From: an uncultured Pseudomonadota bacterium
Lineage (GTDB): Bacteria > Pseudomonadota > Gammaproteobacteria > Burkholderiales > Usitatibacteraceae
Assembly (NCBI GenBank): GCA_946885905.1
Contig: CAMPHL010000006.1
Coordinates: forward strand, 1-19,092
Direction of reading: 5' to 3'
DNA: 19,092 nucleotides
The notes under the pieces: model-generated
What the model was told of the DNA's origin: nothing
Databases searched by the model: none
Seen by the model: the letters and a program-made list of their open reading frames with translations, nothing else
Translations under genes and position numbers: made by a program
In this document: in pieces, positions 3,943 to 18,623 of the stretch
How the letters are laid out: the number at the start of each line of letters is the position of its first letter
How positions within the stretch are numbered: position 1 is the stretch's first letter

Positions 3943-4027
3943 TGGTGCCCAGAAGAGGACTCGAACCTCCACGGTGTTACCCGCCAGTACCTGAAACTGG
4001 TGCGTCTACCAATTCCGCCATCTGGGC
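3943..4027 (-). tRNA. tRNA-Leu, anticodon CAG
   Basis: Read on the minus strand, the 85-nt gene starts GCCCAGATGGCGGAATTGG and ends TTCTGGGCACCA, with the CCA encoded. The 7-bp acceptor stem GCCCAGA/TCTGGGC pairs perfectly. The anticodon stem CCAGT/ACTGG closes a loop TTCAGGT, so the anticodon is CAG (reads CUG, leucine). A variable arm longer than 5 nt (GCGGGTAACACCGT area) makes it a class II tRNA, as expected for leucine. The T-arm contains GGTTCGAGTCC. A candidate promoter lies just upstream. Confidence 0.95.
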
Positions 4028-7561: not shown

Positions 7562-7580
7562 ATAACGTCATGCGTCATAG
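7562..7580. promoter_or_regulatory. Second, imperfect copy of the ACG/CGT dyad
   Basis: AACGTCATGCGTCAT here matches AACGTTACGCGTCAT in the right half of the 28-bp palindrome at 13 of 15 positions. It is itself an imperfect dyad (TATrACGy...rCGTyATA). The two copies flank about 70 bp without a gene, just upstream of the peptidase. It may be a paired operator site; the regulator is unknown. Confidence 0.35.
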
Positions 7581-7644
7581 CCCGAATCGAACCCCCAGGC
7601 GACGAGGAGTGTCCGCCATTGTGACAATCGTCCCCGCCTCCCTC

Positions 7645-7653
7645 TGGGATAAT
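7645..7653 (+). promoter_or_regulatory. Candidate extended -10 promoter for the M16 peptidase
   Basis: TGGGATAAT fits an extended -10 element (TG, one base, then GATAAT). It sits 43 bp before the chosen ATG at 7696. No convincing -35 box is found at 16-18 bp, although TTGTGACA occurs further upstream at 7619-7626. The assignment is weak. Confidence 0.35.
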
Positions 7654-7695
7654 CCGCACTCCTCGCCGTACCTCCTTTCCAAGGCCGTTGCCTCC

Positions 7696-10479
7696 ATGAC
7701 CCGAACCTTCGCTGCGCTCCTCCTCGCCCTTGCCGTGCCGCTCGCCGCCGCGCAGCCGCAACCTGCACCGCGCACCGGCACCGTGACGCCCGTGGAAGCG
7801 AAGGGCCGCAAGCCCGCGCAGCGCCTGCCGCAGCCAAAGGCCGTGACGCCGGTCAAGGTGCACGAAGTCGAAGGGATGACCGAGTACCGCCTGCCCAACG
7901 GCCTCCAGGTCCTGCTCTTCCCGGATCCCTCGAAGCCCACGATCACGGTGAACATCACGTACCTCGTCGGCAGCCGCCACGAGAACTACGGCGAGACCGG
8001 CATGGCGCACCTGCTCGAGCACCTGCTCTTCAAGGGAACGCCGAAGCATCCGAACATCGACCAGGAGTTCAACCAGCGCGGCGTGCGCTACAACGGCACT
8101 ACCTGGATCGACCGCACGAACTATTACGAGCTCTTCCAGGCGAGCGACGACAACCTCGCGTGGGCGATCGAGCTCGAAGCCGACCGGATGGTCAACTCGA
8201 ACATCGCGAAGAAGGACCTCGACAGCGAGATGACGGTCGTGCGCAACGAATACGAGAGCGGCGAGAACTCGCCCTTCAGCGTCTTGCTCAAGCGCCTGCA
8301 GAGCGTGACCTTCGACTGGCACAGCTACGGGCGCTCGACCATCGGCAACAGGAGCGACATCGAGAACGTCCGCATCGAGAACCTGCAGGCCTTCTACCGC
8401 ACGTACTACCAGCCCGACAACGCGGTGCTGCTCATCGCCGGCAAGTTCGACGAGAAGAAGGCGCTCGACCTCATCGCCAGGCACTTCGGCCCGATTCCAA
8501 AGCCCGTGCGCACACTGCCGCCCGAGTGGACGGTCGAGCCCACGCAGGACGGCCCGCGAGAGTTCCAGGTGCGCCGCAAGGGCGACATCCAGATCGTGGC
8601 GCTGGCGTACAAGGTGCCTTCCAGCCTGCACGTCGACTCCGACGCGATCGGGTTCGGCAGTTTCATCCTGGGCCACGTCCCCACGGGGCGCATGCACAAG
8701 GCGCTGGTGGAGACCGGGAAGGCCGCGCAGGTCTTCAGCGTGCCGCTGCCCGGCCGTCATACGGGGCTGCAGCTTTTCGGCGCCGTGGTGAAGCTGGGCG
8801 AGCCGGTCGAGCCGGTACGCGACGAGCTCGTGAGGATCGTGGAGTCGTTCAAGGACAACCCGCCCAATGCGCAGGAGATCGAGCGCACGAGGCTTTCGTT
8901 CATGAACGCTGTCGAGAAGACCCTCGCCAACCACGAGCAGCTGGGCGTGCAGATGTCCGAGTACATCGCGCTCGGCGACTGGCGGCTCTTTTTCCTCGCC
9001 CGCGACGACCTGGACAAGATCACCTCCGAAAAGGTCGCGGCCGCTTCCAAGGCCTACTTCCGCCGCGACAATCGCACGGTGGGAATCTTCGTCCCGGAGG
9101 ACAAGCCGATGCGCGCCGAGATCCCGGCGCCGCCACCCGTGGCCGAAGTGATGAAGGACTTCGTGGCCAAGCCCGCGACCAGCTACGCGGAGGCCTTCGA
9201 TCCCTCGCAGGCCAACATCATGGCTCGCACGAAGACCTACACCTTCGACAACGTGAAGGTGGCTCTCCTGCCGAAGAAGAATCGTGGAGAGACGGTCAAC
9301 GTCGCGATCGTGCTGCACCTGGGCAACGAGAAGGACCTGTTCGGCCAGCGCACGAACGCCTCGTTCGCCGGGTCGATGCTCGCGCGGGGCACGACCCGCG
9401 TCACGCGCGCGCAGCTCTCCGACGAATGGGAGCGGCTCAAGGTGTCGGGGCGGGTTGCCGGCCCGGCCGCCGGCTTGCAGACCACGCGCCCCAACCTGGA
9501 GGAAACGCTGCGGCTGGCCGTGCACGTGATGCGCGAGCCGCGCTTCGATCCGCAGGAGTTCGAGCAGCTGAAGATGCAACGCATCACCTCGATCGAGGCG
9601 CAGATGACCGAGCCCGAGTCGCGCGCCTCCGAGGCGATGTCCGCGCATTTCAATATCCATCCCAAGGGCGATTGGCGATATTCGCCCACGCTCGAGGAGT
9701 CCCTCGCGCAAACGCGCGCTGCGACCCTCGAGGGCGCCAAGGCCTTCCACGAGCGTTTCTACGGCGTGGCGCAAGCCGAGATCGCCGTGGTGGGCGACTT
9801 CGACGAGGCCCGCGTCGCCGCCGTGATCAAGGAGCTTTTCGCCGGCTGGCCGCCGAAGGTGCCCTACCAGCGCGTGCCCAACGAGTATCGCGACATCCCC
9901 GCGGCGCAAAAGACCATCGACACACCGGACAAGGAGAATGCCGTCTTCCTCGCGCGCCAGAACGTCGAGCTCAAGGACGACGATCCGGACTTCCCGGCGC
10001 TCTATGTGGCGAACTACATCCTGGGCGGTGGGGCGGGCTTCGATTCGCGCTTCGCCACGCGGATCCGCCAGAAAGATGGCCTGTCCTATGGCGTCGGTTC
10101 CGACCTGTCGATCGGCTCCCTCGATAGGGCCGGGTCGTGGTCGGCGTATGCCATCGCTGCGCCCGGAAACATCGCTCGCGTCGAGACCGCGTTCAGGGAA
10201 GAGCTCGAGCGGGCGCTCAAGGACGGCTTCACCGATGCGGAGCTCGCGGCTGCCAAGTCGGGAATCATGCAGAAGCGAGTGCAGGCGCGTTCCCAGGACG
10301 GCACGGTGGCGAGCGCCTGGACGGGCAATCTCTACCTCGGGCGCACGTGGGACTTCAGCAAGCAGTTCGAGGAGAAGATCCTGGCGCTCCGCGCGGCCGA
10401 GGTTTCCGCGGCGCTGCGCAAATATCTCGACCCGGCGAAGGTCGCGGTGGTGAAGGCGGGGGATTTCACGAAGAAATAG
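7696..10479 (+). CDS. Secreted two-domain M16 zinc metallopeptidase
   Basis: This 927-residue protein begins with a classic signal peptide ([20 protein letters not shown]), so it should be exported to the periplasm or beyond. The first M16 unit carries the inverted zinc motif HLLEH, with His105, Glu108 and His109. The second ligand Glu185 follows exactly 76 residues after His109 in [14 protein letters not shown] second M16 unit begins near residue 515. It has no HxxEH and is the inactive partner half that closes the chamber. It contains [20 protein letters not shown] and GLSYGVGSD, the usual substrate-contact region. Overall it resembles PqqL-like zinc peptidases; the substrate cannot be told. 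I chose ATG 7696 over the in-frame 7570 start because it places the signal peptide at the N-terminus. It is a single gene with its own likely promoter. Confidence 0.92.
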
Positions 10480-10767: not shown

Positions 10768-11727
10768 ATGGCCAGGCCATCGCGCAAATATTCGACGCGC
10801 CGCCGCGTCCTGGTGACGGGCGGCGCCGGCTTCATCGGCTCCCACCTGTGCGAGCGGCTGCTGGCCGAGGGTTGCGATGTGCTCTGCGTCGACAACTTCT
10901 TCACCGGCACGAAGGACAACATAGCGCACCTGATCTGCATGCCCTACTTCGAGGTCATGCGGCACGACGTCACCTTCCCGCTCTATGTCGAGGTGGACGA
11001 GATCTACAACCTCGCGTGCCCCGCGGCTCCGATCCACTACCAGTTCGATCCGGTGCAGACGACCAAGACGAGCGTGCACGGGGCGATCAACATGCTGGGG
11101 CTCGCCAAGCGGGTGAAGGCCAGGATCCTCCAGGCGTCCACCTCGGAGGTCTATGGGGACCCCGAGGTGCATCCGCAGGTGGAGAGCTATTGGGGACACG
11201 TGAACCCGATCGGCCTGCGTTCGTGCTACGACGAGGGCAAGCGCTGCGCGGAGACGCTGTTCTTCGACTATCACCGCCAGCACAGCCTGCGCATCAAGGT
11301 GGCACGGATCTTCAACACGTATGGTCCGAGGATGCATCCGAACGACGGCCGCGTGGTTTCCAATTTCATTGTCCAGGCGCTGAAAGGCGAACCGGTCACC
11401 ATCTACGGGGACGGCTCGCAGACGCGGTCGTTCTGCTACGTGGACGACCTGGTGGAGGCGCTGATCCGGTTGATGGCGACCGACGACACCTTCACCGGCC
11501 CGGTGAACCTGGGCAACCCCAGGGAGTTCACGATCCTTCAACTCGCCGAGCAGGTGCTCGGCCAGACCGGGTCGAAGTCGAGGATCGTGAGGAAGAAGCT
11601 GCCGAGCGACGATCCGAAGCAACGGCGGCCGGACATCACGATGGCGCGCAAGCACCTGCGGTGGAAGCCAACGACGTCGCTCGAGGCGGGCCTCGAAAAG
11701 ACCATCGACTACTTCCGCGCAAGGTAG
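10768..11727 (+). CDS. UDP-glucuronate decarboxylase (UDP-xylose synthase)
   Basis: This 319-residue short-chain dehydrogenase of the UXS type oxidises and decarboxylates UDP-glucuronate, then reduces it to UDP-xylose, using tightly bound NAD. The Rossmann motif GGAGFIG is at 18-24. The active site shows STSEVYGDP with Glu127, and YDEGKR with Tyr154 and Lys158, preceded by GLRSC. Glu in TSEVYG and YDEGKR are typical of the UXS/ArnA-decarboxylase group, not of plain epimerases. Other family marks are [33 protein letters not shown] and [14 protein letters not shown]. It has no membrane anchor, so it should be cytosolic. It lies 15 bp upstream of a second UDP-glucuronate enzyme. No Shine-Dalgarno precedes the start. 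Confidence 0.93.
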
Positions 11728-11742
11728 GGAAGGGTCGAGGAG

Positions 11743-12696
11743 ATGAAGATCTTGTTGACGGGCGCCGCCGGGTTCATCGGCGCGCACCTGGCAAAAGCGC
11801 TCCTGCGGCGAGGCGACGAGGTCGTGGGCGTCGACAACCTCAACGCCTACTACGATGTGTCGCTCAAGGAAGCCCGCCTGGAATGGATCGGGCGCGAGGG
11901 CGGTTCGTTCACCTTCGTGAAGGCCGACATCGCCGACCGGACGGCGATGGAAGGACTGTTCGCGAGCGCGCGGTACGGCGCGATCGTGAATCTCGCCGCC
12001 CAGGCAGGCGTGCGCTATTCGCTCGAGAACCCGGGCGCATACACGGAAGCGAACATCCGCGGCTTCCTCAACATCCTCGAGGGCGCGCGGCACCACGGCA
12101 CCGGTCACCTCGTATATGCGTCGACGAGCTCCGTCTACGGCACCAACAAGCCGCCGTTCCGTGAATCCGATCGAACCGATACGCCGATTTCGCTCTACGC
12201 GGCGACCAAGAAGGCCAACGAGGTCATGGCCCATGCGTACGCCCACCTCTTCGGGTTTCCGGCTACGGGGCTGCGCTTCTTCACCGTGTACGGCCCATGG
12301 GGCCGGCCCGACATGGCGCTATTCAAGTTCACCAGGGGCATCCTCGCCGGCGAAGCGATCCCGGTCTTCAACCAAGGCAGGATGGTGCGGGATTTCACCT
12401 ATATCGACGACATCGTCGAAGGCGTCCTGCGGGTGATCGACAGGCCCGACGGCTATCGCATCTTCAACATCGGCAACCACCGGCCGGTGCCGCTCATGGA
12501 TTACATCCGCGCCATCGAGGCCGCTGTGGGAAGGAAGGCGGTGCTCGACCTCATGCCGATGCAGGCCGGCGACGTCGAGGCAACGGAGGCCGACACCTCT
12601 GGATTGCAGCGAGCTACGGGATTCAACCCCGATACGCCGGTGGAAGAGGGCGTGAAGCGGTTCGTCGCTTGGTATCGCGACTATTACAAGGTATGA
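11743..12696 (+). CDS. NAD-dependent epimerase, likely UDP-glucuronate 4-epimerase
   Basis: This 317-residue extended short-chain dehydrogenase probably converts UDP-glucuronate to UDP-galacturonate, a precursor for capsule, LPS or exopolysaccharide. The NAD motif GAAGFIG is at 7-13, and the catalytic YAATK gives Tyr152 and Lys156. Several stretches mark the UDP-glucuronate 4-epimerase branch: VDNLNAYYDVSLKEARL, LAAQAGVRYSLENPGAY, and above all GLRFFTVYGPWGRPDMALF. The length is slightly under the usual 330-340. A Shine-Dalgarno (AGGGAAGGG, 11726-11734 region) overlaps the stop of the decarboxylase gene, so the two are one operon sharing one substrate. The other candidate activity is C4 epimerisation of another UDP-sugar. 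No UDP-glucose dehydrogenase is in the window. Confidence 0.88.
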   Translation: MKILLTGAAGFIGAHLAKALLRRGDEVVGVDNLNAYYDVSLKEARLEWIGREGGSFTFVKADIADRTAMEGLFASARYGAIVNLAAQAGVRYSLENPGAYTEANIRGFLNILEGARHHGTGHLVYASTSSVYGTNKPPFRESDRTDTPISLYAATKKANEVMAHAYAHLFGFPATGLRFFTVYGPWGRPDMALFKFTRGILAGEAIPVFNQGRMVRDFTYIDDIVEGVLRVIDRPDGYRIFNIGNHRPVPLMDYIRAIEAAVGRKAVLDLMPMQAGDVEATEADTSGLQRATGFNPDTPVEEGVKRFVAWYRDYYKV

Positions 12697-14493: not shown

Positions 14494-15828
14494 TCATTTC
14501 TTCGGAGCCGCCGAGGGCGCAGCCGCCGCCTTTGGCCGTATGGCCGCGACGTAGCGGTCGTTGGAGTAGATGAGGCGCTGCACGAGGAGCTTCACGATCG
14601 CACGGCCGAATGCGGCCTGCAGCCTGCCCGACGCCCGTTGCAACGCATCGGCCGAAAAAGCGACGACCTGCGTTGGAATCACGGCGCGAACGCTCGCCGA
14701 GCGCGGGCGATCGGTGCCTTCGATGAACGCGATTTCGCCGAATCCCTCGCCGGAGGCGACGCGTCCGAGGCGAACGCCCTTGTGCATCACCTCGAGCTCC
14801 CCGGACTCCACGACATAGACCGTCCGGTCATCGGCACCTTCGTCGATCACCTCCTTGCCGGGCTCGTACGTCTGGCGGGTACCCAGGCGCACCGCTTCCC
14901 ACAGCTCGTTCTCCGCGAAGCGCGAGAAGAAGGGCAAGCCGCGCAGGGCCTCGAAACGCGCGCTCTCATTGGAAACGGCGTTGTCCTCGCGAATCTGCGG
15001 AAACGCCGCGGATAGGGCCATCCGGAACTGCTTCCAGGTCTGGAAGCGCTTGGTGCGATCGCGGTGCATCGCCGTGTCGATCGCCTCGCGCAGGCCCAGG
15101 GGCACGTTCTGGCGGCGGCGCTCGAGCGGCACGGGCTCGCCGTGCAGCTTCTCGTAGATCATCGCCGATTGGGTGTCGCCCCGGTGCGGGTAGTGGCCCG
15201 TCAGCAGGTTGTAGGCCATGACCCCGGCGGCGTAGATGTCGTGCTGGACATGCGGTTCGGCGCCCTCGAAGTGCTCGGGGGGCATGAACGGGAGCGTGCC
15301 AACGCCGATCACCTGCGTTTCGTCGGTGCCAGTCATGAACACGGCGCCGAAATCGCTCACCTTGGGCGTGCCGTCGGCTGCCAGCAGCACGTTGGCCGGC
15401 TTGATGTCGCGGTGGAGCAGGCCTTCGGTGTTCGCATATTCGAGCGCGTGGCACACCTTGAAGACGATGTCGGCCACCCTGGGGATCTCGAGCAGCGTAT
15501 GGGGTTGGACGTGGTCGGCGAGCGTTCCGCCTGCCAGGTACTCCATGACGAGGAAGCTGCGGTCGGTCTCCTGGCCCGCTTCGTAGATCTCGAGGATATA
15601 AGGGTGCTTGAGCCGGCCCGCGAGGCGCATCTCGTTCACCCAGAGCTGCTCTATGCGCGCCTGCTCGTCGGTCGGGCTCTCGATCGCCTGCATGATCTTG
15701 AGCGCCACCTCGCGCTGGTGGAAACGGTCCTTGACGAGATAAACCTCGGCCATGCCGCCCTGGCCGAGCGGGCGGATGTATTCGAACCGGCGGCCGAGGG
15801 CGCCGGAGAATGCTTCGGGAACGGCCAT
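14494..15828 (-). CDS. Ser/Thr protein kinase fused to a cyclic-nucleotide-binding domain
   Basis: This 444-residue protein is a Hanks-type kinase (about 15-275) followed by a CNB domain (about 298-415). Kinase motifs are complete: GQGGMAEVY loop at 22-30, Lys44 in VALK, Glu66 of helix C, HRDIKPAN with Asp141 and Asn146, DFG at 159-161, PPE at 183-185 in place of APE, and DIYAAG from Asp197. The CNB part shows a phosphate-binding cassette, FGEIAF...RSASV, with Glu365 and Arg376, the residues that hold the ribose and phosphate of cAMP or cGMP. It has no membrane segment, so it should be cytosolic. The layout resembles eukaryotic PKG in reverse order. Activation by cyclic nucleotide is inferred. 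No clear Shine-Dalgarno precedes the ATG. It faces rplI convergently and dnaB divergently. Confidence 0.92.
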   Translation of the reverse strand: MAVPEAFSGALGRRFEYIRPLGQGGMAEVYLVKDRFHQREVALKIMQAIESPTDEQARIEQLWVNEMRLAGRLKHPYILEIYEAGQETDRSFLVMEYLAGGTLADHVQPHTLLEIPRVADIVFKVCHALEYANTEGLLHRDIKPANVLLAADGTPKVSDFGAVFMTGTDETQVIGVGTLPFMPPEHFEGAEPHVQHDIYAAGVMAYNLLTGHYPHRGDTQSAMIYEKLHGEPVPLERRRQNVPLGLREAIDTAMHRDRTKRFQTWKQFRMALSAAFPQIREDNAVSNESARFEALRGLPFFSRFAENELWEAVRLGTRQTYEPGKEVIDEGADDRTVYVVESGELEVMHKGVRLGRVASGEGFGEIAFIEGTDRPRSASVRAVIPTQVVAFSADALQRASGRLQAAFGRAIVKLLVQRLIYSNDRYVAAIRPKAAAAPSAAPKK

Positions 15829-16181: not shown

Positions 16182-18623
16182 ATGGCACCTGCCACTGCCG
16201 GATCGGACCGGTTTTCCCGCGCCGTCCCGGGCGACGCCCAGATCGAATCGCTGCGCCTGCCGCCGCATTCGGTGGAGGCGGAACAGGCCGTGCTTGGCGG
16301 GCTCCTTCTTTCCAATCCGGCGTGGGACCGCATCGGCGACCTCATCCGGGATTCGGATTTCTACCGCGCCGACCATCGCGTCCTCTGGCGCACGATCACC
16401 AGGCTGATCGAGGACAACAAGCCGGCTGACGTGCTCACCGTCGCCGAGGCGCTCAAGGTCTCGGGTGAAATCACCGATGTCGGCGGCATCGCGTACCTGG
16501 ACCAGCTCGCCTCGGGCACGCCCTCGGCGGCGAACATCCGGCGCTATGCGGAGATCGTTCGCGAGCGCGCAATCATGCGCAAGCTCGCCGAAGTGGGCAC
16601 GAATATCGCAGACTCGGCCTATTCGCCCCTGGGTCGCGACGCGCGGCAACTGCTGGACGAAGCCGAAACAAGGATCCTGGAGATCGGCGAATCGGGCGGG
16701 CGCTCCTCCGAGAGCTTCGCCAAGATGTCGCAGGTCCTGGCCGAGGTGATGTCGCGCCTCGACGAGCTGCATCGCAATCCCGCGTCCGTCACGGGCAAGG
16801 CCACGGGTTTCGTCGACCTGGACGAGATGACGACGGGGTTGCAGGACGGGGATCTCATCATCGTGGCCGGGCGGCCCGCCATGGGCAAGGCGACCCCGGT
16901 GGATTCCCTCGTCAAGACGTCCACGGGTTGGGCGCAGATGGGGGCGCTCAAGGTCGGCGACGCGTTGGCTTCAATCGATGGCGCACACTCGGTCGTGACC
17001 GGCGTCTATCCTCAAGGCGAACGCCAGGTCTACCGGCTGACGTTCTCGGATGGCCGCCAAGTGGAGGCCTGCAAGGAGCACCTCTGGCGCATCCACCACG
17101 GCGGCTGGGATGAACCGCGCGTCGCCTCGACCGGGAAGCTGATGGAGATGCTGGCCCGCAAGCGCTATCAGCATCGCTTGTGGATCGACCAGGTTACCGG
17201 GGAATTCGGACACAGCGACCCGCTGCCGGTCGATCCCTGGGTGCTTGGAGCGTTGCTCGCTGACGGGGGTCTTGGCCACACGTCGCCGAAGTTCAGCACG
17301 ACCGACCGCGAAATGGCCGAACAGATGTCGGCTGTGCCCGAGGCGAACGGGGATGGCGTGCAAATGCGTCACGCGGACCGCCACGAGGTTATCGGCCGCC
17401 ATCCGGCGGTGCGAAGCGATCCGAACGCGCTCATCCACGAATTGCGCAAGGCGGGCGTCTGGGGCCTCGATAGCCAGGACAAGTACATCCCCTATGCCTA
17501 CCTGACCGCCAATCGTGCGGCGCGGCTCGCCTTGCTCCAGGGCTTCCTGGATACCGAGGGCTGGGTGGAGAAGGTGCGCGCCGTTCGCTATTGCACGACG
17601 AGCAAGCGCCTGGCGAAGGACGTCCAGGAGCTGGTGCGTTCCCTGGGAGGCTGGTGCTCGCTCGCCACCAGGGCGACGAAGTTTTCCTGCAAGGGCGAAA
17701 AGCGCGAAGGCCGCCCCGCGTTCGTGCTGGACATCCACCACCCCGAGCCTCGCTCCCTGTTCCGGCTTGCGCACAAGCGTGAGCGCCTCCCCGAGCGCTA
17801 TCGGCACGTCCCGAAACCGGTCCTCGTTTCGATCGAGCCAACCCGGGTGACCCAGACCCGATGCATCGCGGTCTCGCACGCGTCGCGGCTTTTCGTCACG
17901 AACGATTATGTCGTCACGCACAACACCTCCTTCGCCCTCAACATCGCCGAGCACGTAGGCCTCGAGCTCAAGCTTCCCGTCCTCGTGTTCTCGATGGAGA
18001 TGGGGGGCACGCAGCTGGCGACGCGCCTGCTCGGCTCCGTCGGGAAAGTGGACGCGCAAGCGCTTCGCACCGGGCGCCTTTCGCCCACGGACTGGGACCG
18101 CCTCGGGCATGCGCTCGGAAAGCTGAACGAGGCGCCGATCCTGATCGACGAATCGCCGGGCCTCAACCCGCTCGAGCTGCGTGCCCGCGCGCGCCGCAAG
18201 TGGCGCGAGTACGGCGGGCTCGGGCTGATCGTGGTCGACTACATACAACTCATGCAGGCCACCGACGCCGGCCAGGAAAACCGCGCCACGGAGCTGTCCG
18301 AGATCTCGCGCGGCATGAAGTCCATGGCCAAGGAGCTCAAGTGCCCCGTCATCGCGCTCTCGCAGCTCAACCGCTCGCTCGAGCAGCGGCCGAACAAGCG
18401 GCCGGTGATGTCGGACCTTCGTGAAAGTGGCGCGTTGGAGCAGGATGCGGACATGATCTTCTTCATCTACCGCGACGAGGTCTACAACGAGGATTCGCCC
18501 GACAAGGGCATCGCGGAGATCATCATCGGCAAGCAGCGCAACGGCCCCATCGGCACGGTGAAGCTCACGTTCCTCGGCAAGCACACGCGCTTCGAGAATT
18601 ACTCGGGGGCTCCGGGATACTAG
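16182..18623 (+). CDS. dnaB: Replicative DNA helicase DnaB with an intein
   Basis: This 813-residue precursor encodes the hexameric helicase that unwinds DNA at the replication fork. The N-terminal domain (about 25-125) has LPPHSVEAEQAVLGGLL, followed by the linker and the RecA-like ATPase domain. Walker A is GRPAMGK ending at residue 236, and its Thr (582) comes only after a 345-residue intein. After it follow FSMEMGGTQLATRLL, Walker B LIVVDYIQLM, ALSQLNRSLEQRPNKRPVMS, RESGALEQDAD and the KQRNGPIGTV arginine-finger region. Without the intein the protein is 468 residues, normal for DnaB. The start at 16182 has AGGAGA at 16165-16170. DnaB function depends on splicing, because the unspliced form has a broken nucleotide-binding loop. 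alr follows, as in many proteobacteria. Confidence 0.97.
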   Translation: MAPATAGSDRFSRAVPGDAQIESLRLPPHSVEAEQAVLGGLLLSNPAWDRIGDLIRDSDFYRADHRVLWRTITRLIEDNKPADVLTVAEALKVSGEITDVGGIAYLDQLASGTPSAANIRRYAEIVRERAIMRKLAEVGTNIADSAYSPLGRDARQLLDEAETRILEIGESGGRSSESFAKMSQVLAEVMSRLDELHRNPASVTGKATGFVDLDEMTTGLQDGDLIIVAGRPAMGKATPVDSLVKTSTGWAQMGALKVGDALASIDGAHSVVTGVYPQGERQVYRLTFSDGRQVEACKEHLWRIHHGGWDEPRVASTGKLMEMLARKRYQHRLWIDQVTGEFGHSDPLPVDPWVLGALLADGGLGHTSPKFSTTDREMAEQMSAVPEANGDGVQMRHADRHEVIGRHPAVRSDPNALIHELRKAGVWGLDSQDKYIPYAYLTANRAARLALLQGFLDTEGWVEKVRAVRYCTTSKRLAKDVQELVRSLGGWCSLATRATKFSCKGEKREGRPAFVLDIHHPEPRSLFRLAHKRERLPERYRHVPKPVLVSIEPTRVTQTRCIAVSHASRLFVTNDYVVTHNTSFALNIAEHVGLELKLPVLVFSMEMGGTQLATRLLGSVGKVDAQALRTGRLSPTDWDRLGHALGKLNEAPILIDESPGLNPLELRARARRKWREYGGLGLIVVDYIQLMQATDAGQENRATELSEISRGMKSMAKELKCPVIALSQLNRSLEQRPNKRPVMSDLRESGALEQDADMIFFIYRDEVYNEDSPDKGIAEIIIGKQRNGPIGTVKLTFLGKHTRFENYSGAPGY
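16890..17924 (+). mobile_element. Class 3-type intein with LAGLIDADG endonuclease, in DnaB Walker A
   Basis: The 345-residue insert (precursor residues 237-581) starts ATPVDSLVKTSTGW and ends VVTHN, followed by +1 Thr582. The first residue is Ala, so the usual Cys1/Ser1 pathway is impossible. The class 3 set is present: Trp302 two residues after His300 in block B (EHLW), Cys561 in block F (TRCIAV), and Thr579 directly before His580-Asn581 in block G. In class 3 inteins the block F Cys is the first nucleophile. Unusually, the block B Thr position is Cys297. The middle part has two dodecapeptide motifs, VLGALLADGGLG with Asp361 and LLQGFLDTEGWV with Glu459, so it carries a LAGLIDADG homing endonuclease with both acidic residues. 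Junctions are firm because the flanking DnaB motif is exact. Confidence 0.93.

Follow-up and report, generated by a model that had tools for sequence, protein, structure and literature searches.

We analyzed a 19,092-nucleotide stretch, called the window below, of contig CAMPHL010000006.1 from assembly GCA_946885905.1 of an uncultured bacterium of the Usitatibacteraceae, with emphasis on an intein-like insert in its dnaB gene. The insert has a stop-free translation that starts with ATPVDS and ends with VVTHN, and it lies exactly between the Lys and the Thr of GRPAMGK/TSFALN, the Walker A motif (P-loop) of DnaB (Table 1). Pfam placed the N and C domains of DnaB on either side of the insert and a LAGLIDADG_3 domain within it (E 4.3e-10). 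The site, ends and numbering given in a first-pass annotation of this DNA hold: Trp302 and Cys561 of the interrupted protein are intein residues 66 and 325, and the spliced DnaB is predicted to have 468 residues (813 minus 345). The surroundings of dnaB are those of an ordinary chromosomal gene: the genes for ribosomal proteins S6 and L9 lie upstream, and an alanine racemase gene starts downstream. The exteins are 89-90% identical, over the compared pieces, to those of P0024 and P0025, both Usitatibacter sp. according to their source, which for this single protein suggests a position close to betaproteobacteria of the Usitatibacter type.

Table 1. Features of the interrupted dnaB gene in the window (residues of the insert are numbered from its first residue).
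Feature	Position	Strand	Basis or remark
dnaB open reading frame	16182-18623	+	813 codons, interrupted in frame by 345 codons
DnaB N-extein, 236 aa, C-terminal end GRPAMGK	16182..16889	+	Pfam PF00772
Putative class 3 intein with endonuclease domain, 345 aa	16890..17924	+	Translation of the reading frame, alignment of relatives, predicted fold
Intein residue 1, Ala (non-nucleophile)	16890..16892	+	Translation; alignment of relatives
Block B CKEHLW: Cys61 (B:7), His64 (B:10), Trp66 (B:12)	17070..17087	+	Alignment
LAGLIDADG endonuclease domain, about residues 106-297, limits approximate	17205..17780	+	PF14528, predicted fold
Block C, first LAGLIDADG motif WVLGALLADGGL, Asp125	17238..17273	+	Alignment
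Block E, second LAGLIDADG motif ALLQGFLDTEGWVE, Glu223	17529..17570	+	Alignment
Cys325 (DnaB Cys561), block F position 4, proposed first nucleophile	17862..17864	+	Alignment
Block G Thr343-His344-Asn345	17916..17924	+	Alignment
DnaB C-extein, 232 aa + stop	17925..18623	+	Pfam PF03796; +1 Thr at 17925-17927
Second DnaB intein site, SDLRE/SGALEQ, junction between 18425 and 18426, empty in the window	18411..18443	+	Pattern check

A protein search with the insert alone gave 1566 proteins at E<=0.001, and the residue counts that follow cover the best 120 of them; one of these, P0003, is 99.7-100% identical to the window protein and represents it, leaving 119 others. Class 3 inteins are defined in PMC5222942 and PMC3196547 by Trp at position 12 of block B (B:12), Cys at F:4 and Thr at G:5, with His at B:10 and Ser or Thr at the +1 position. 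The window intein carries this Trp, Cys, Thr and His together with a +1 Thr and Ala at residue 1. The Trp66 column held Trp in 120/120 relatives and in 160/160 loci from our contig scans. Cys325 was matched by Cys in 119/120 relatives, the remaining one (P0083) being incomplete, and in 160/160 loci, while Thr343-His344-Asn345 was kept in the same proportion of relatives, again with P0083 incomplete; the corresponding 160/160 loci for Thr at G:5 and His-Asn are less independent, the locus-scan patterns having already contained the block G stretch. His64 was His throughout (120/120), and the +1 residue was Thr in 117, Ser in 2 and missing in 1. At residue 1, 102 relatives have Ala, 12 have Ser, 3 have Cys, and 3 lack the position. 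We built a quick tree of 115 intein rows with residue 1 excluded and, as for our other trees, from inteins with the Trp-Cys-Thr set only. Counted on the 106 rows having Ala, Ser or Cys, it needs at least 12 changes of residue 1 between Ala and Ser or Cys (3 for Cys alone); nine rows, eight phage and one incomplete bacterial, were left out of this count. An invariant Cys at F:4 beside a variable residue 1 is what one expects of inteins in which F:4 acts as first nucleophile. The class 3 assignment of the first-pass annotation was upheld at the sequence level, Trp302 and Cys561 both falling by alignment inside class 3 columns that are unvarying among these relatives while residue 1 varies.

The residues of the other two classes differ from those found here. 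Class 1 calls for a Cys, Ser or Thr nucleophile at residue 1, where the window has Ala, and class 2 for Asp at F:4 in a KlbA host, where the window has Cys325 in DnaB. A class 2-like route, in which the +1 Thr would attack the N-terminal junction directly and Cys325 would merely assist, agrees with Ala1, which excludes a class 1 start; however, the class 2 inteins covered by PMC4031507 come from KlbA orthologues and have Asp at F:4, whereas the position here is a conserved Cys accompanied by the Trp and Thr of the class 3 set, making such a route highly improbable. Cys at residue 1 was found beside the full Trp-Cys-Thr set in the bacterial proteins P0038, P0056 and P0065, of which P0056 and P0065 have Ser in place of Cys at B:7, and in the viral loci L132, L135 and L138, which look like near-copies of each other. 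In a published census, which counted 1701 class 3 inteins, the absence of an N-end cysteine belonged to the definition (PMC7891396), so that members of this kind would be missed. The first-pass annotation had also described the splicing route as a rarer one. The class 3 type stands, but it is not unusual in this setting, the same intein occurring in many betaproteobacterial DnaBs; judged by its sequence, the insert is a correctly read, well-preserved but ordinary member of the known class 3 inteins.

A second intein site in the same protein served as a control. Among 201 DnaBs, which include two records of the window protein and some other proteins under two identifiers, the site SDLRE/SGA(I/L)EQ held an intein in 33, was empty in 151, including the window, and was uncallable in 17. 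The second-site inteins had Asp at F:4 (33/33), Leu, Ile or Val at B:12 (32/32 read) and Ser (31) or Thr (2) at G:5, residues that were not part of the search pattern. Because the pattern demanded a Cys in the first position of the intein and block B was sought as T..H (found in 32/33), these two features are partly there by construction. The P-loop and second-site inteins have different residue sets, with class 1 residues at the second site. The second-site inteins are 162 to 434 residues long, and from this range some of them are probably mini-inteins. P0006, L008 and L053 are among the DnaBs that combine a class 3 P-loop intein with a class 1 intein at SDLRE/SGA.

The P-loop inteins of Usitatibacter, Burkholderia, Polynucleobacter and Rokubacteria resemble that of the window in site, length and signature residues at ~47-71% identity, with ordinary divergence only. 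No publication on Usitatibacter or Polynucleobacter inteins was noticed among the top-ranked literature matches. The best 80 of 167 loci in the genome-contig scan came mainly from betaproteobacteria, the rest from Rokubacteria and a small number of others. We surveyed the 28 genomes of the family containing genome G001 (locus L062) and obtained intein matches in 7, two of them fragmentary or partial. In another 14 the P-loop was empty, the joined-flank peptide of the window matching uninterrupted at no less than 71% identity; the remaining 7 were not callable (no match in 5, a match of just 40% identity in one and a partial match in another). The DNA of the 14 empty sites is continuous across the junction, and its central 24 bases agree with those of the window at 15 to 20 positions. 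The intein is therefore patchily distributed within one family, and the DnaB domains on either side, the 1566 search matches and these uninterrupted P-loops mean that the insert is not a chance reading. Over 194 rows, of which as many as ten (L081-L090) are viral, intein and extein identities were correlated, with a Mantel r of 0.75 that 0/999 permutations reached. The inteins were more alike than the extein pieces in 6980/18721 pairs, which indicates that exchange occurs too. Among its nearest relatives the window intein, by these comparisons, follows its own DnaB: its two closest inteins, those of P0004 and P0005, belong to proteins that also rank in the top three by extein.

The endonuclease domain contains both LAGLIDADG motifs, with Asp125 and Glu223 at the eighth place, which we take to be the catalytic acid position. 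The Glu223 column holds Asp in 189/199 bacterial rows and Glu in 6, and Ala124 stands where Gly is kept in 193/199. In a structure comparison I-Tsp061I aligned with window intein residues 108-307. The domain is predicted to have the fold of a homing endonuclease and has the Asp of motif C, together with a motif E that carries Glu223. A faster-changing, decaying endonuclease in the window lineage was also considered, but the unique changes in the endonuclease part were unconvincing (16 vs 8 against P0004, p 0.15; 14 vs 9 against P0005, p 0.40).

If the insert were inactive or dying, dnaB would be left broken. Two unusual residues within the LAGLIDADG motifs and the unique changes of the whole intein (28 vs 14 in P0004, p 0.04) point in this direction, but the excess over P0005 is not clear (27 vs 17, p 0.17), the frame is open and all splicing residues are retained. 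Moreover, dnaB is an essential gene, and the joined-flank peptide search saw no second, intein-free DnaB P-loop in the family's 7 genomes with the intein, since the flank matches there were broken halves or a single half. The pseudogene Arth_1007, by contrast, is described as having lost His B:10 and Cys F:4 (PMC3196547). We regard a dying insert as extremely improbable.

We consider it very probable that the insert in the Walker A motif of this chromosomal replicative helicase is a class 3 intein that splices in cis and bears a LAGLIDADG homing endonuclease domain, and that the whole mechanism follows that of characterized class 3 inteins, for which attack by the F:4 Cys, transfer to the +1 residue, Asn cyclization and an acyl shift are described (PMC5222942, PMC4031507). 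After folding of the precursor, Cys561, aided by His300 and Thr579, would attack the Lys236-Ala237 bond and carry the N-extein as a thioester, which Thr582 at +1 would then receive. Cyclization of Asn581 would free the intein, and the acyl shift would link GRPAMGK to TSFALN in a 468-residue product with a restored P-loop. Interrupting the P-loop should abolish ATP use, so that the unspliced helicase would be inactive; for the mycobacterial DnaB inteins, PMC6195587 and PMC8557812 consider such a loss likely from the analogous case of RadA. The endonuclease part would cut empty dnaB P-loop sites and so spread, or formerly have spread, the element to them.

The DnaB inteins of M. smegmatis (DnaBi1, PDB 6bs8), M. 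leprae and M. chimaera are described at the same P-loop site (PMC6195587, PMC8557812) and share the Trp-Cys-Thr set with the window intein. DnaBi1 also has Ala1, and its splicing domain resembles the predicted fold of the window intein. According to these two sources, neither DnaBi1 nor the M. leprae intein has an endonuclease, both being mini-inteins with Ser at +1, whereas the window intein has an endonuclease domain and a +1 Thr. An endonuclease-bearing chromosomal dnaB intein, relatives with other residues at position 1 and empty sites together provide material for defining the residue needs of class 3 splicing, and the same material could show whether splicing gates replication beyond mycobacteria.

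The viral-contig scan gave 432 loci, and our counts cover the best 80. Read by eye, the residue before the insert is Lys in 79 of these and Asn in L154, and the one directly after it is Thr or Ser, in line with the Lys and Thr of the window. By a BLAST test the host was a DnaB-type helicase in 23/80 and another protein in 57/80, and the phage inteins are more divergent from that of the window, with the exception of L081; among 511 records from a phage collection the best-ranked one was 38.7% identical. The DnaB of L081 (4353-6797) carries a class 3 intein nearest to the Usitatibacter-type bacterial inteins and is encoded on a contig judged to be phage by its neighbors (exonuclease, repressor and an O-like initiation protein). 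Its intein is 60.6% identical to that of the window and 69.1% to that of P0006, and the compared extein pieces are 47% identical to both; over seven inteins of the window's clade the ranges are 61-69% and 46-48%, and the whole exteins are 45% (N) and 53% (C) identical to those of the window. In a tree of 41 rows (28 bacterial and 13 phage) L081 groups with 13 Usitatibacter-like inteins (support 100/98). Mainly because of this contrast between intein and extein identity, the sequences support movement of the element between phage and bacterium, in either direction, in the L081 branch, and hence exchange with at least one phage lineage.

The first-pass annotation had suggested transfer from phage to host. 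Exchange is borne out and its direction is not, and we consider a recent phage-to-bacterium transfer as the source of the intein in the window's host rather unlikely. L081, with the same insert in a phage DnaB and an intein identity well above that of its exteins, fits such a transfer, as does the rejection of a tree constrained to separate the 28 bacterial from the 13 phage inteins (p 0.0135), although the 13 phage rows were tested jointly and rows beyond L081 are also involved. However, separating the 13 nearest bacterial inteins from L081 was not rejected (p 0.245), nor was a split of bacteria and phages on the 115-row quick tree (p 0.329). The nearest intein relatives, P0004 and P0005, are near by extein as well, and no foreign base composition was seen in the intein, its guanine-cytosine fraction being 0.657 against 0.662 for the host.

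Among the class 3 inteins of this branch, block B has the form CxxH, with Cys at B:7 (Cys61) in 185/199 bacterial rows and 49/80 viral loci. Class 1 inteins have Thr at B:7. The mycobacterial DnaBi1 has Asp there (PMC6195587, PMC8557812). B:7 is described as close to residue 1 (PMC6195587, PMC4031507), and a disulfide between Cys61 and the nucleophile Cys325 is conceivable for this reason. Oxidants and zinc are reported to block the splicing of M. smegmatis DnaBi1 in a reversible way (PMC6195587, PMC8557812, PMC7360933). The pair might act in a manner similar to Cys48-Cys118 of M. smegmatis, but conserved and within a splicing block; that it forms a built-in switch keeping DnaB inactive under oxidation is a reading we consider unlikely. 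A narrow literature search, which shows little, gave no titles with an evident account of CxxH in inteins.

Elsewhere in the window, a gene for a protein kinase with a C-terminal cyclic-nucleotide-binding domain adjoins dnaB on the opposite strand (14494-15828, minus). A neighboring pair of NAD-dependent sugar-nucleotide epimerase/dehydratase genes lies at 10768-12696, and a single frame of 969 aa at 7570-10479 encodes M16 peptidase domains with two M16_C stretches. A gene for tRNA-Leu (CAG) is located on the minus strand at 3943-4027.
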